A DNA stretch of 51,907 nt, taken from assembly GCA_903825245.1 (NCBI GenBank), contig CAIJZX010000037.1, positions 1 through 51,907 of the forward strand. Reading direction: 5' to 3'. The DNA is from Candidatus Kerfeldbacteria bacterium (GTDB lineage Bacteria > Patescibacteriota > Patescibacteriia > SBBC01 > CAIJZX01). Positions within the stretch are counted from its first letter, which is position 1; each line of letters starts with the position of its first letter. A program made the position numbers and the translations under genes. Positions 3,707 through 16,873 of the stretch are shown piece by piece. The notes under the pieces were generated by a model that did no database searches, had not been told where the DNA came from, and was given only the letters and a program-made list of their open reading frames with translations.

Positions 3707-3793
3707 GCGGGTATCCCCGGCCTTAGCCGGGGCGAGCTCCTATCGGTATTATCTCGTCGTTCGACGGGATAGATGATCAGCTTTCTCCCGCTC
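3707..3793 (+). other. tRNA-Gly 5'-half-like leader with inserted hairpins
   Basis: The segment repeats pieces of the 5' half of the nearby tRNA-Gly in order: GCGGGTATC, TATCGGTATTA and TCAGCTTTC, stopping in the middle of the anticodon loop. Between them are insertions: a strong hairpin CCCCGGC-CTTA-GCCGGGG and a second hairpin TCTCGTC-GTTC-GACGGGATA. It ends TCCCGCTC. It is not a functional tRNA as it stands. The GCGGGTA at its start can pair with TACCCGC at 4079-4085, at the end of the matching 3'-half copy. Confidence 0.65.
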
Positions 3794-3848
3794 ACTACAA
3801 CTAAACATTAACTTGCGGGATCTCGCACGACGAAATCGTGTCCCGCGA

Positions 3849-3919
3849 GCGGGTATCGTATATCGGTATTACCTCAGCTTTCCAAGCTGATGAGAGGAGT
3901 TCGACTCTCCTTACCCGCT
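3849..3919 (+). tRNA. tRNA-Gly(UCC)
   Basis: A full cloverleaf can be drawn: acceptor GCGGGTA/TACCCGC with discriminator T, anticodon arm TCAGC-TTTCCAA-GCTGA (anticodon TCC), T arm AGGAG-TTCGACT-CTCCT. CCA is not encoded. The flanks TCCCGCGA (3841-3848) and TCGCGGGA (3919-3926, including the discriminator) are perfectly complementary and extend the acceptor helix to 15 bp. Confidence 0.93.
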
Positions 3920-3956
3920 CGCGGGACGGAATTTTCAGTAGATATCAAAATGTCGT

Positions 3957-4089
3957 GCGGGACAAGCTGATGAGAGGGTTGAGTCGGCATCCGGAGGATA
4001 GCGACTGAACTGCTTCAGTCGCGGCCGTCGAAACGAGCAGCGCATGTTTCGAAGGAACAGCGATGCCTAGGACTCTCCTTACCCGCTCC
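3957..4089 (+). other. tRNA-Gly 3'-half-like trailer with insertion in the T loop
   Basis: Begins GTGCGGGA, then CAAGCTGATGAGAGG, exactly where the 5'-half copy stopped in the anticodon loop, and ends CTCTCCTTACCCGCTC. It is identical to the 3' half of tRNA-Gly except that the T loop is replaced by RNA element A. The GTGCGGGA can pair with the TCCCGCTCAC that ends the 5'-half copy, so the two halves could be brought together around the intact tRNA. Confidence 0.65.
3978..4073 (+). ncRNA. Conserved structured RNA element, copy A
   Basis: 96 nt beginning GTTGAGTC and ending GGAC. Hairpins: ATCC-GGA-GGAT; the 9-bp GCGACTGAA-CTGC-TTCAGTCGC at 4001-4022; and GTTTC-GAA-GGAAC at 4046-4058 within the longer TCGAAAC...GTTTCGA pairing. 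CGGC and GCCG can close the first two hairpins into a junction. It aligns with copies B and C along its length. Unknown family; whether it is an expressed functional RNA or a small mobile insertion is open. Confidence 0.6.
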
Positions 4090-4109
4090 AAGCGAATTTA
4101 CATTGAAAG

Positions 4110-8444: not shown

Positions 8445-11018
8445 TTAATCGAAACCGTATTTTCGGACGAAAATATTTTTGACGAATTGCGTGAGGACGA
8501 GGTAGGCAATAGCCATGGCCGAGACAATGAGGAAGAACAACGGTGGGAGCGGTACGAATTTGAAGAAGGTGCCGATCGGGGTGTAGGGGAGAATACAGCC
8601 AAGCGCCACAATGCCGAATGTCGAGAGAAATAATGTTCGGCTCGGACGGCTTTCGAGGAAGGGAATTTTTTGGGTGCGGATGATGTAAATGACGAACGTT
8701 TGGGTGAGCAACGATTCGACAAACCAACCGGTGCGGAAGAGTGCCGGGGAAGCGTGAAAGACAAACCACATTACTCCAAAGGTCATAAAGTCAAAAATCG
8801 AACTGACCGGTCCGATCGCGAAAATAAAACGCTTGATGAAGGTAATATTCCACGGTCGCGGTTTTTGCAGGTAGTCTGCATCGACACTATCGGACGGAAT
8901 GGTGACCTGCGACAAGTCGTACAAGAAGTTATTTAACAGTATTTGCGTCGGCAACATCGGTAAGAACGGCAAGAAGATGCTGGCACCGGTCATGCTCAAC
9001 ATATTGCCGAAATTCGAACTGGCGCCCATCTTAATGTACTTCAACGAATTAGCAAATGTCTTCCGACCTTCCGTCACGACGTTGCTGAGCACTAACAAAC
9101 TTTTTTCCAGCAAAATAATATCAGCATTTTCCTTAGCAATGTCGACAGCGTTATCAACTGACAATCCGACGTCAGCGGCTTTGAGTGCCGGGGCGTCATT
9201 AATGCCGTCGCCCATGTAGCCGACGATGTGGCCGGCCCGTTGGAGCGCTTTAATGAGCCGCTCTTTTTGAATCGGCGTGACACGTGCAAAGATGGTGGTG
9301 GTTTCCACTGCTTTTTGCAAACCTTCATCAGTCATGTGGTCGATATCTTGTCCGGTCAACATTGATGCGGTTGATAAACCGACATCATGGCCGATTTTTT
9401 CATTGACGAGCTCGTTATCTCCGGACAGTACTTTCAAGGTGATACCGAGTTGTTCTAGTTGCTTGATCGCTTGAATCGCGCTTTCCTTCGGCGGATCGAG
9501 AAAAGCCACGAACCCAGCGAAGATCAAATCATGTTCATCCGACGTCGTGTATGCTTCTTGCTGATTGGCCACATCACGATAAGCGATTGCCAAGACGCGA
9601 AAGCCTTGCCGCGAAAACGTTTCTTCCAGCTGCACGATTTTTGTTTCTTCGGTACCGGTGAAGGAGCGAACCGAGCCGCGATCGACGAATTGCGTGCTTC
9701 GCTTAAACACTTCTTCCGGAGCGCCCTTGGTGATGAGGCGGTGCTGACCGCCAATATCAACGACGACGGATAACACTTTGCGCTGAAAATCGAAGGGAAT
9801 TTCGTCAACTTTTTTAATATCGGAAATATCAAGCTTGGTGGCATTCAGCACAGCTTTTTCTAGCACATTGTTCATGCCGGTTTGGAAGGCGCTCGTCAGG
9901 TACGCGTCCTTAAGAATTTGTTCATCTTCACGACCTTCAACGTCGCAGTGTTTAACGAGCGTCACTTGGTCGAGCGTCAATGTCCCAGTTTTATCGGTGC
10001 ACAAAACATCCATGGCGCCGAAATTTTGGATAGCATCAAGGCGTTTGATGATTACTTTTTTCTTGGACATGGCCAATGCGCCCTTCGATAAGTTGACCGT
10101 AACGATCATCGGCAACATTTCCGGAGCGAGGCCGACCGCTACGGCAACTGCAAACAAGAGCGCCTCTAAGGCATTGTGTTTAAAGACGGCATTGACGACG
10201 AAAATGAACACCGCGAGCACGGTAATTAATCGGATCATCAACAAGGTAAACGATTTGATACCACGGTCAAAACTGGTGGCGGTTTCACCGGATAACAAGT
10301 GTTGTGAGAGTTGTCCGAATTGTGTTTGTTTACCGGTGGCTACTACCAAACCGATAGCGGTACCACTGACCACGCTGCCGCCCATGCAAGCGATGTTTGG
10401 CAAATCGAAAACCGAGTCCTTCGCCTCGGCCTGGTGGTCGGGCCATTTTTCCGTCGGGAATGATTCGCCGTTCAGTGCCGACTGGGCAATGAAAAGATCT
10501 TTGCTACTGATAATGCGCACATCAGCTGGAATCATATCGCCAGCCGCTAGTTCAATAATATCGCCCGGCACGATGTCACGAAGCTGGAGATCGATCGGAC
10601 CGCTGTGACGGATAACACGGCAGGTAATTCGAACCATGGCTTGGAGTTTATCGGCGTTGTTTTGTGCGCGGTGTTCCTGAACGTACGACAAGACGACACT
10701 CAAGACCGCCATAGCGATGATAATGATGGCGCTAATTTTATCGCTAAAGAAATAGGAAACCGCAGCTAGTACGAACAGCAGGAGCACTAATGGACTGGCG
10801 AACCGTTTTGCGAGATCGCGCAGCATTCCGACACGTTCTTTACTGGCTACTTCGTTCGGACCATATTGGACCAATCGTTGCTGAACATCGTCGACGGTCA
10901 GTCCAGTGTGTGATGTTTTGAGTTGCAGTAAGGCCGCAGGAGCAGGCAGGTTGTTGATCGATCGCAGGAGATCATCATTCGTGTGATGGGTCTGGTGTGG
11001 TGTTGTAGGAGTGGGCAT
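8445..11018 (-). CDS. P-type ATPase, magnesium-transporter (MgtA/MgtB) type
   Basis: 857 aa, full length for P3B ATPases. Seen in order: N-terminal cation-ATPase segment GLTVDDVQQRLVQYGPNEV, actuator ALNGESFPTEK (about 181-191), the ion-site helix VGLAPEMLPMIV (about 295-306) as in MgtA, phosphorylation site CTDKTGTLT (Asp about 342), nucleotide-binding KGAPEEV, hinge GYMGDGINDAPALKAADVG, and further C-terminal membrane helices. It probably imports Mg2+ using ATP. No protein-coding Mg sensor is adjacent. Divergent from the 11173 cassette. Confidence 0.9.
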   Translation of the reverse strand: MPTPTTPHQTHHTNDDLLRSINNLPAPAALLQLKTSHTGLTVDDVQQRLVQYGPNEVASKERVGMLRDLAKRFASPLVLLLFVLAAVSYFFSDKISAIIIIAMAVLSVVLSYVQEHRAQNNADKLQAMVRITCRVIRHSGPIDLQLRDIVPGDIIELAAGDMIPADVRIISSKDLFIAQSALNGESFPTEKWPDHQAEAKDSVFDLPNIACMGGSVVSGTAIGLVVATGKQTQFGQLSQHLLSGETATSFDRGIKSFTLLMIRLITVLAVFIFVVNAVFKHNALEALLFAVAVAVGLAPEMLPMIVTVNLSKGALAMSKKKVIIKRLDAIQNFGAMDVLCTDKTGTLTLDQVTLVKHCDVEGREDEQILKDAYLTSAFQTGMNNVLEKAVLNATKLDISDIKKVDEIPFDFQRKVLSVVVDIGGQHRLITKGAPEEVFKRSTQFVDRGSVRSFTGTEETKIVQLEETFSRQGFRVLAIAYRDVANQQEAYTTSDEHDLIFAGFVAFLDPPKESAIQAIKQLEQLGITLKVLSGDNELVNEKIGHDVGLSTASMLTGQDIDHMTDEGLQKAVETTTIFARVTPIQKERLIKALQRAGHIVGYMGDGINDAPALKAADVGLSVDNAVDIAKENADIILLEKSLLVLSNVVTEGRKTFANSLKYIKMGASSNFGNMLSMTGASIFLPFLPMLPTQILLNNFLYDLSQVTIPSDSVDADYLQKPRPWNITFIKRFIFAIGPVSSIFDFMTFGVMWFVFHASPALFRTGWFVESLLTQTFVIYIIRTQKIPFLESRPSRTLFLSTFGIVALGCILPYTPIGTFFKFVPLPPLFFLIVSAMAIAYLVLTQFVKNIFVRKYGFD

Positions 11019-11879: not shown

Positions 11880-11900
11880 CTTTTTCGGTGGAATTCGGAA

Positions 11901-12039
11901 TCTCCCGCTCCCAAAGCAGGCGCGCTTCCGGGGCGCCGCCTGTTCCTTCGAAACATGGCGTCGTCCGTCTCGATCGTCGGAAGCAAAGCAGTTTGCTTCC
12001 TGACCGTTACACGGTCACGATCTCGACCCAACTGCGCCA
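11901..12039 (-). pseudogene. tRNA-Pro-like copy interrupted in the D loop by element B
   Basis: On the minus strand TGGCGCAGTTGG matches the D arm of the neighbouring tRNA-Pro. Then comes RNA element B, then GCGCGCCTGCTTTGGGAGC, which matches the rest of the D arm and the anticodon arm (anticodon TGG retained). The acceptor and T arms are degenerate. It cannot be a normal tRNA. Confidence 0.65.
11926..12028 (-). ncRNA. Conserved structured RNA element, copy B
   Basis: 103 nt on the minus strand, aligning with copies A and C. Hairpins: GACCG-TGTA-ACGGTC-type first stem; 9-bp GGAAGCAAA-CTGC-TTTGCTTCC (11979-12000), same CTGC loop as A and C but a different stem sequence; and GTTTC-GAA-GGAAC. 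GATCGT...ACGATC closes the first two hairpins. The block CATGTTTCGAAGGAACAG is identical to copy A apart from its first context base. Confidence 0.6.
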
Positions 12040-12057
12040 TTCATAAAATATCCACTG

Positions 12058-12130
12058 TCGGGGCGCCGAGACTCGAACTCGGGGCCTCCTGCTCCCAAAG
12101 CAGGCGCGCTACCAACTGCGCCACGCCCCG
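12058..12130 (-). tRNA. tRNA-Pro(UGG)
   Basis: Acceptor CGGGGCG/CGCCCCG with discriminator A, D arm GGCGCAGTTGGTAGCGC, anticodon arm CCTGC-TTTGGGA-GCAGG (anticodon TGG), T arm with GTTCGAG. CCA is not encoded. Flanks TATCCACTG and CAGTGGATA extend the acceptor stem with perfect complementarity. Confidence 0.94.
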
Positions 12131-12216
12131 ACAGTGGATACATGATTTGTCATTGTACTTGGTGCACCCGGAAAAAATATGGTAAGTACGGACGAAGCGT
12201 TTTCCTTAGCAGTTGG

Positions 12217-12289
12217 TGCGCCCGGAGGGAGTCGAACCCCCAACCTTCTGGTCCGAAGCCAGACACTCTATCCATTGAGCTACGGGCGC
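12217..12289 (-). tRNA. tRNA-Arg(UCG)
   Basis: Acceptor GCGCCCG/CGGGCGC with discriminator A, D arm AGCTCAATGGATAGAGT, anticodon arm TCTGG-CTTCGGA-CCAGA (anticodon TCG), T arm GGGGG-TTCGACT-CCCTC. CCA is not encoded. The flanks TTAGCAGTTGGT and ACCAACTGCTAA make a 19-bp perfect helix with the acceptor stem. Upstream of tRNA-Pro in the same probable transcript. Confidence 0.95.
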
Positions 12290-12318
12290 ACCAACTGCTA
12301 ACGAGTATTGTCACCCCC

Positions 12319-12408
12319 AGTCCCGGGCGTCGCTGTACCTATGATACATCGCGCCGCCCGTCTCGTCCCGCGAAAACTGAAGCAGTTCAGTTTTCTTGTA
12401 GACTCAAC
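12319..12408 (-). ncRNA. Conserved structured RNA element, copy C
   Basis: 90 nt on the minus strand, GTTGAGTC at the start as in copy A and GGGACT at the end. Hairpins: 10-bp GAAAACTGAA-CTGC-TTCAGTTTTC (12372-12395) and GTATC-ATA-GGTAC (12335-12347). The latter carries a compensated T-A to A-T change relative to GTTTC-GAA-GGAAC in A and B. GGGCG/CGCCC closes the 3' hairpin. The small first hairpin is missing. It sits in the leader of tRNA-Arg(UCG). Confidence 0.6.
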
Positions 12409-16208: not shown

Positions 16209-16244
16209 ACTATATTATATATTATTTACTAATCAATGAAGGTT

Positions 16245-16330
16245 GGGGTGGCTATCCCCGTATCCCAACTGCGTCGGGTACGGGGCAGGCGGGATACGTC
16301 GTCGATTTGTATTATGCCCGCGCGGGTGGG
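16245..16330 (-). other. tRNA-His 3'-end-like trailer
   Basis: On the minus strand this segment ends GATAGCCACCCCA, identical to the 3' end of tRNA-His over 13 nt including the CCA. The T arm is replaced by a longer hairpin, CCCCGTACCC...GGGATACGGGG. It lies about 25-110 nt downstream of the intact tRNA. A companion 5'-half copy lies upstream (16476-16529). Confidence 0.55.
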
Positions 16331-16662: not shown

Positions 16663-16742
16663 ACGCGTGCCCCTCCCTCGGCGCACTCGGGATAAATTCC
16701 GCACAACCGATTGTTGAGGATATTTGTTCAGACTTGTGTAGC
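16663..16742 (+). other. Structured leader of tRNA-Arg(UCU)
   Basis: Contains GTGCCCC (16667-16673), complementary to GGGGCAC at 16865-16871 in the trailer. It then has CTCG...CGGGATAAATTCCGCACAA, which matches CGGGATAAACTCCGCCCAA in the leader of tRNA-Arg(UCG). ACTTGTG just before the tRNA pairs with CACAAGT just after it. Confidence 0.5.
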
Positions 16743-16817
16743 GGCCCTATAGTTCAACGGATAGAACACCGGACTTCTAAGCCGGTTATGGAGGTTCGAT
16801 TCCTCCTGGGGCCACCA
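16743..16817 (+). tRNA. tRNA-Arg(UCU)
   Basis: Acceptor GGCCCTA/TGGGGCC with one G-U pair, discriminator A and encoded CCA. Anticodon arm CCGGA-CTTCTAA-GCCGG gives anticodon TCT (with an A-G mismatch closing the loop). T arm GGAGG-TTCGATT-CCTCC. Third distinct flank style: 7-bp ACTTGTG/CACAAGT beyond a short internal loop. Confidence 0.92.
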
Positions 16818-16837
16818 CACAAGTTTGATAAAATAAG

Positions 16838-16873
16838 CCCGTGATGATGGTTCAACTCCATCCGGGGGCACCA
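16838..16873 (+). other. Orphan tRNA 3'-half (T arm, acceptor strand, CCA)
   Basis: The sequence has a perfect T arm GATGG-TTCAACT-CCATC, then CGGGGGC-A-CCA, but no D or anticodon arm before it. It starts AAGCCCG, like the post-anticodon part of tRNA-Arg(UCU). The leader GCCCCT (from 16669) could serve as its 5' acceptor strand across the intact tRNA. Confidence 0.6.

Follow-up and report, generated by a model that had tools for sequence, protein, structure and literature searches.

Long leader-trailer helices of tRNA genes in a Kerfeldbacteria genome as probable arms of palindromic insertions within broken copies of the same tRNAs

The window, the whole 51,907-nt stretch analyzed here (contig CAIJZX010000037.1, assembly GCA_903825245.1, Candidatus Kerfeldbacteria bacterium), carries several tRNA genes whose flanking sequences pair with each other. 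The genome to which it belongs is designated G000, and other G numbers denote the further genomes compared. An intact tRNA-Pro(UGG) without an encoded CCA lies on the reverse strand at 12057–12130 (identified by ARAGORN; Rfam score of 69.9 bits). Its 5′ arm and acceptor 5′ strand (12124–12140, reverse strand, with the leader at 12131–12140) form a 17-bp perfect inverted repeat with the 3′ arm and acceptor 3′ strand (12049–12065, reverse strand, with the trailer, including the discriminator, at 12049–12058). The leader-trailer duplex was calculated at −17.3 kcal/mol, compared with −10.1 at best for any other G000 trailer. The neighboring tRNA-Arg(UCG) (12214–12289, reverse strand) is also intact and encodes its CCA. 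Its 5′ arm and acceptor 5′ strand (12283–12301, reverse strand, leader 12290–12301) form a 19-bp perfect helix with its 3′ arm and acceptor 3′ strand (12206–12224, reverse strand, trailer 12206–12217), and the leader-trailer duplex was −22.3 kcal/mol. Both helix lengths count the 7-bp acceptor stem.

Pieces of a second tRNA-Pro lie beyond the 3′ arm of the intact one, all on the reverse strand. Spliced alignment identified a fragment corresponding to tRNA positions 8–17 (12030–12039), a hairpin element located in the D loop of this outer copy (11930–12029; GGGTCGAG..CTGC-loop hairpin..GACGCC), and a fragment corresponding to tRNA positions 18–56 (11891–11929), which matched at 33 of 39 positions. 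The outer copy had a spliced-alignment score of 57, versus 25 for the best of 47 decoy tRNAs. No Rfam family except tRNA scored above its gathering score for the 100-nt element. At tRNA-Arg(UCG), a possible 3′ fragment of an outer tRNA-Arg was recognized by eye (tRNA positions 64–76, 12 of 13 matching; 12160–12172, reverse strand), but four decoys score equally high and the match is not significant alone. Immediately upstream of this tRNA, one copy of the CTGC-loop/GACGGGCGGCGCGATG element occupies 12326–12395.

The tRNA-Gly(UCC) locus, on the forward strand, has a similar arrangement. The intact inner copy (3849–3920) is bordered by a 5′ arm (3839–3848) and a 3′ arm (3919–3928) that form 10 consecutive pairs, 9 or 10 of them being extra to the tRNA. 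Around it are outer fragments corresponding to tRNA positions 13–25 (3741–3753), 26–34 (3777–3785, ending within the anticodon), 35–53 (3963–3980), and 54–74 (4070–4090), and a hairpin element of the CTGC-loop type occupies the T loop of the outer copy (3981–4069). The score of this outer copy was 72, compared with 27 for the best of 47 decoys. Its insertion point after position 34 is common to G000 and the relative G002, and a pattern search for the orthologous Gly-UCC locus gave matches in only three genomes.

The intact tRNA-Arg(UCU) (16743–16817, forward strand) has a 5′ arm (16728–16739) and a 3′ arm (16817–16828) that form a 12-pair helix past a small internal loop (duplex of −17.7 kcal/mol). 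The 3′ half of a second tRNA-Arg (positions 36–75, 30 of 40 matching) follows at 16834–16873 on the same strand, with a score not above the best decoys for the locus. Spliced alignment thus did not separate outer copies from decoys at either tRNA-Arg(UCG) or tRNA-Arg(UCU). A sequence-only reading of the window had reported long perfect helices on tRNA-Pro and tRNA-Arg(UCG), and further ones on tRNA-Gly(UCC) and tRNA-Arg(UCU), and we found all of them. The tRNA-His of the window has no helix; a 13-nt exact repeat of its 3′ end occurs ~100 nt downstream (16244–16256), within a palindromic stretch. The window also encodes a P-type cation ATPase (8445–11018) whose best relatives (51–58% identity) are in unrelated phyla and archaea, which suggests horizontal transfer of that gene.

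Flank complementarity was calculated across G000 for 50 tRNAs drawn from the genome's 52 tRNA matches, a set that lacks only one or two of its tRNAs. The duplex between 20 nt of leader and 22 nt of trailer was compared with permutations pairing leader i with trailer j. The mean duplex was −10.2 kcal/mol, versus −6.1 ± 0.37 for the permuted pairs (z = −11.2). A strong duplex was present in 16 of the 50 tRNAs (2.4 expected), and 14 reached −16 kcal/mol (0.4 expected). The distribution was bimodal, with a helix on ~18 tRNAs and none on ~30. The helices are therefore a genome-wide feature of G000 and not a product of chance.

The same test gave a strong excess in several relatives, including G002 of the same family (z = −16.1), G003 (−5.6), G007 of the same order (−8.3), and G032 of the same class (−8.9). 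No excess was detected in G001 of the same genus (z = −0.7) or in G015 of the same class (z = −0.3). The claim that ordinary tRNAs lack such helices held for tRNAs from other phyla (z = +0.45, n = 11), and across tens of genomes representing the remainder of the phylum the signal was slight (z = −2.1; 4 of 87 tRNAs at or below −12 kcal/mol, 1.9 expected). The excess is strong yet patchy inside one class.

Pairing of the arms is retained while their sequence changes. Among eight tRNA-Pro genes from five genomes, both sides of the arms had changed in 12 of 14 pairs, and covariation was 0.85, compared with 0.24 ± 0.05 when shuffled and at most 0.24 when slid. The tRNA-Pro(CGG) locus adjoins uppS in G000, G001, and G007, and its arms differ among these genomes yet still pair. 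Pairing has thus been maintained during sequence turnover, a pattern that fits selection on structure or else recurrent template-switch copying (PMC8794818).

The sequence-only reading had proposed that the helix is a device for pre-tRNA processing, cut by an RNase III-like nuclease before RNase P and RNase Z act, or else a barrier to maturation. The covariation of the tRNA-Pro arms is in favor of a processing device, as are the presence of RNase III and the fact that arms, acceptor stem, and T stem make up one continuous long helix. The unusual RNase III or RNase P complement that was looked for did not appear, however. G000 has RnpA and a class A RNase P RNA (191.8 bits). Whether rich or poor in helices, the genomes compared have one RNase III, and RNase P RNA was likewise found in relatives of both kinds, so an anomaly in these enzymes was rejected as the cause of the helices. 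Double-strand-specific processing is further opposed by the roughly two thirds of G000 tRNAs that have no helix, by G001 and G015, which mostly lack helices despite having RNase P RNA and RNase III, and by the outer tRNA copies, which it leaves unexplained. We regard a dedicated processing device as distinctly improbable. The idea of a barrier fared better. The RNase P of E. coli is slowed when the leader pairs with the 3′ RCCA but unwinds this pairing (PMC9433436), and by analogy a kinetic cost of the helices to tRNA maturation is plausible.

Direct reading of loci showed that partial tRNAs surround intact ones, and local alignment of tRNAs with their own flanks gave a large excess over controls that used tRNAs for other amino acids. 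For a stricter count, outer copies were called by spliced alignment, which permits insertions, at a score of at least 45, with the expectation taken from decoys. Collinear outer copies were found at 9 of 50 loci in G000 (0.2 expected), 17 of 47 in G002 (0.2 expected), and 8 of 44 in G032 (0.1 expected). They accompanied 38 of 83 helix tRNAs, compared with 27 of 154 others (Fisher p = 7e-6). Breakpoints lay near positions 10–12, 17–20, 22–26, 29–40, 44–46, and 53–57, which are mostly loops, and many outer copies had lost segments. The interruptions are GC-rich hairpin insertions, and the intact tRNA sits at the tip of one of them. Among 23 tRNA-holding insertions bounded by two solid outer exons, 14 were in or at the edge of the outer anticodon loop. 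Insertions of this kind have flanks of ~9–270 nt on each side of the tRNA. The nesting of intact tRNAs in broken copies of the same identity is very likely the true architecture of these loci. Our search of literature available without subscription returned no account of such nesting in bacteria, which is a weak negative.

Other repeated pieces of tRNA were observed in the relatives. Many tRNAs without a helix in G001, G002, G003, and G032 (for example, loci L116, L112, L091, and L151) have their own last ~20 nt, from the T loop to CCA, repeated 80–180 nt downstream. This repeat closes a structured element (GAAGGGCAG..CTGCCCAGGGA); covariation links the first stem of the element to the T-loop sequence of the tRNA. 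In G032, a broken tRNA-Lys(UUU) and a broken tRNA-Lys(CUU) (loci L078 and L082, respectively) are both interrupted at position 39/40 by 56-nt elements that are homologous and consist of two hairpins and a conserved CGAGGATC linker.

Broken outer tRNAs might instead be functional interrupted genes, with the hairpin insertions, including the one that contains a second tRNA, being removed as introns. The preference of insertions for loops would suit this explanation, and some outer copies do keep complete, pairing-competent exons; those of the G002 tRNA-Thr(CGU) join to give a perfect tRNA. Many others, however, are missing segments, and an intact gene exists for every isoacceptor in both G000 and G002, where no outer tRNA is the only copy of its isoacceptor. 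The sole isoacceptor present only in interrupted form, the tRNA-Asn of G032, has a group-I-like intron and not a hairpin. Splicing of the outer copies is, on this evidence, highly improbable. The G032 tRNA-Asn (L284, 1501–1791) was the only one found in that genome and was missed by automatic tRNA finders. Its anticodon loop is interrupted by 217 nt that, judged from core sequence, look like a group I intron, and it is a separate case. In the window, tRNA was the only Rfam family matched, with no group I intron.

The insertions themselves have recurrent features. Their outer ends are inverted repeats (for instance, CCCGCCCGCC/GGGCGGG, TCCCGC/GCGGGA, CCCCGTA/TACGGGG, and CCTGCCCGCC/GGCGGGCAGG), and the same stem continues inward to form the helix adjoining the tRNA. 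Insertions free of cargo share ends with those that hold a tRNA, for example, CCCCGTAAAAGTTTCGCTTCGCTCAACTTCACGGGGCAAG in G007. Leader arms were similar across genomes, with 48 pairs scoring at least 18 among 93 helix tRNAs, compared with 1 in shuffles, and the arm TCCCGCACCATCCTGG is common to the tRNA-Thr(UGU) of G007 and the tRNA-Val(GAC) of G003. A count of five hairpin patterns covered tRNA regions and the window, together 384 kb without redundancy. Of the 50 copies, 48 lay no more than 400 nt from a tRNA, a zone that makes up 37% of this sequence.

At one locus, the inner and outer tRNAs appear to have different origins. The outer exons of the G002 tRNA-Thr(CGU), once joined, are called as a complete tRNA-Thr(cgt) by ARAGORN, and where outer and inner copies differ in the acceptor and anticodon stems, the changes are compensatory. 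The nearest sequences to the outer copy are natives of the same order (92–95% identity). The inner copy is only 82% identical to its own family, and its nearest sequences are in scattered families (G007, 95%; G022, 93%; G083, 92%; G014, 90%). Conservation in G000 and G001 of the protein gene that separates tRNA-Gly(CCC) from tRNA-Thr(CGU) indicates that the site is orthologous. Inner-type tRNA-Thr genes in G007, G014, and G021 are also flanked by helices and lie beside pieces that match the native type. These sequence relationships make a clear case for a native, broken outer tRNA and a foreign, intact inner one. There are hints of the same pattern at tRNA-Lys(CTT) and tRNA-Thr(GGT) of G002. 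A general tendency of helix tRNAs to xenology was not supported: 11 of 57 helix tRNAs were nearer to another family than to their own, compared with 12 of 75 others (p = 0.65); foreign cargo is therefore shown at one locus only and hinted at in two more. The inner copies of G000 are almost the same as their outer copies, and local duplication fits as well.

Template switching during replication offers another origin for the arms. By switching at a tRNA cruciform, the polymerase would make the two flanks reverse complements, and its backward jumps would leave partial tRNA copies, so that arms and fragments would be by-products and repeated switching would keep the pairing. Perfect RNA hairpins are known to be created and maintained by template switching (PMC8794818), which provides a precedent. 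The arms begin exactly at the discriminator in 27 of 39 CCA-less tRNAs, as this process might produce. Also in its favor is the tRNA-Pro(CGG) gene of G000 (L026) and G001 (L094), in which positions 31–76 of the outer tRNA equal those of its own inner tRNA (46/46) while the inner tRNAs differ between the genomes, a pattern attributable to concerted evolution or repeated copying. Local template switching could account for many G000 loci, including those of the window. It does not explain arms shared by different tRNA identities and by different families of the class, or the foreign inner tRNA-Thr within a native outer one. Its case is also weakened by the lineage-restricted occurrence of the helices and by the cargo-free hairpin families that have common ends at several loops. 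Template switching is thus an unlikely explanation for the phenomenon as a whole.

The reading that we prefer, with a probability of roughly 0.6, is that each long helix consists of the arms of a palindromic insertion of a mobile element, with an intact tRNA at its tip and a second, broken copy of that tRNA around it. Tiny non-autonomous palindromic elements would insert into tRNA genes, and where the gene that was hit is needed, the surviving insertions would be those that hold a functional tRNA of the same identity (insert-and-rescue). In the resulting transcript the acceptor stem would be extended and would have to be unwound by RNase P or cut by another nuclease. Several observations count against this mobile-element reading: no outer copy was detectable by spliced alignment for 45 of 83 helix tRNAs, no end motif is common to the arms of most G000 helices, helix tRNAs show no excess of xenology, the inner and outer copies of G000 are close to identical, and no mobilizing enzyme was found. 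A Y1/RAYT transposase was considered as the mobilizer and rejected; it is absent from G000, and in G002, G003, G007, and G032 it is not consistently flanked by the hairpins. A more specific version is put forward tentatively and may well prove wrong. It envisions a minimal selfish palindrome of ~100 bp, specific to tRNA genes, that kills the gene, mostly at the anticodon loop, carries its replacement, is locked in by insert-and-rescue, and moves between lineages with nothing but an essential tRNA of the host as cargo.

Among known systems, tRNA-dependent lysogeny offers the nearest working analogy; there, insertion of a temperate phage destroys a host tRNA gene and the phage supplies an intact tRNA of the same isotype (PMC10865867). 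In both systems the insertion interrupts a host tRNA gene without rebuilding it, here seen as outer copies broken at loops, and a same-isotype tRNA is present. Here that tRNA is clearly foreign for the G002 tRNA-Thr(CGU), and foreign origin is not enriched overall. The analogy is one without phage or integrase. Phages bring an integrase and kilobases of genes, whereas the shortest insertions here are ~105–150 bp, with paired arms around a tRNA and no gene, and their flanks are too short for a tyrosine integrase gene. The integrase islands cataloged by Islander likewise have partial tRNA copies beside an intact one, with breakpoints at the anticodon or T loop, and their displaced fragments resemble the downstream repeats of positions 54–76 seen here (PMC4383910). 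Unlike those islands, the loci described here have ~60–200 bp between copies, no integrase, outer fragments on both sides, and several hairpins per copy.

REP/REPIN and MITE-type palindromes are also short, GC-rich, and non-coding, with recurrent ends, but the hairpins described here are, in the sequence examined, nearly confined to tRNA loci, sometimes contain a tRNA, and have no link to a Y1 transposase. Leader-trailer stems of rRNA, which are cut by RNase III, are similar in that the flanks of a stable RNA pair and extend its terminal stem; in contrast, the helices here occur on a minority of tRNAs, are diverse in sequence, and are tied to broken tRNA copies. In Caldiarchaeum, a mobile element was proposed to have disrupted a tRNA-Thr gene and scattered its fragments (PMC3293823), as is suggested here, although that case is archaeal, its introns can be spliced, and its 1.8-kb element has a recombinase gene. 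On the features that were tested, the insertions do not belong with phages, REP elements, or group I introns.

If the mobile-element reading is correct, a non-coding element far smaller than the phages that use the same logic would survive by breaking an essential tRNA gene and supplying a spare. This would account for the turnover of tRNA genes, the horizontal replacement of tRNAs, the partial tRNA predictions, and the missing CCA ends in these genomes. The way in which RNase P handles 10–17 extra base pairs on its substrate would become testable, and gene finders and tRNA-based phylogenies for this class should allow for nested tRNAs.
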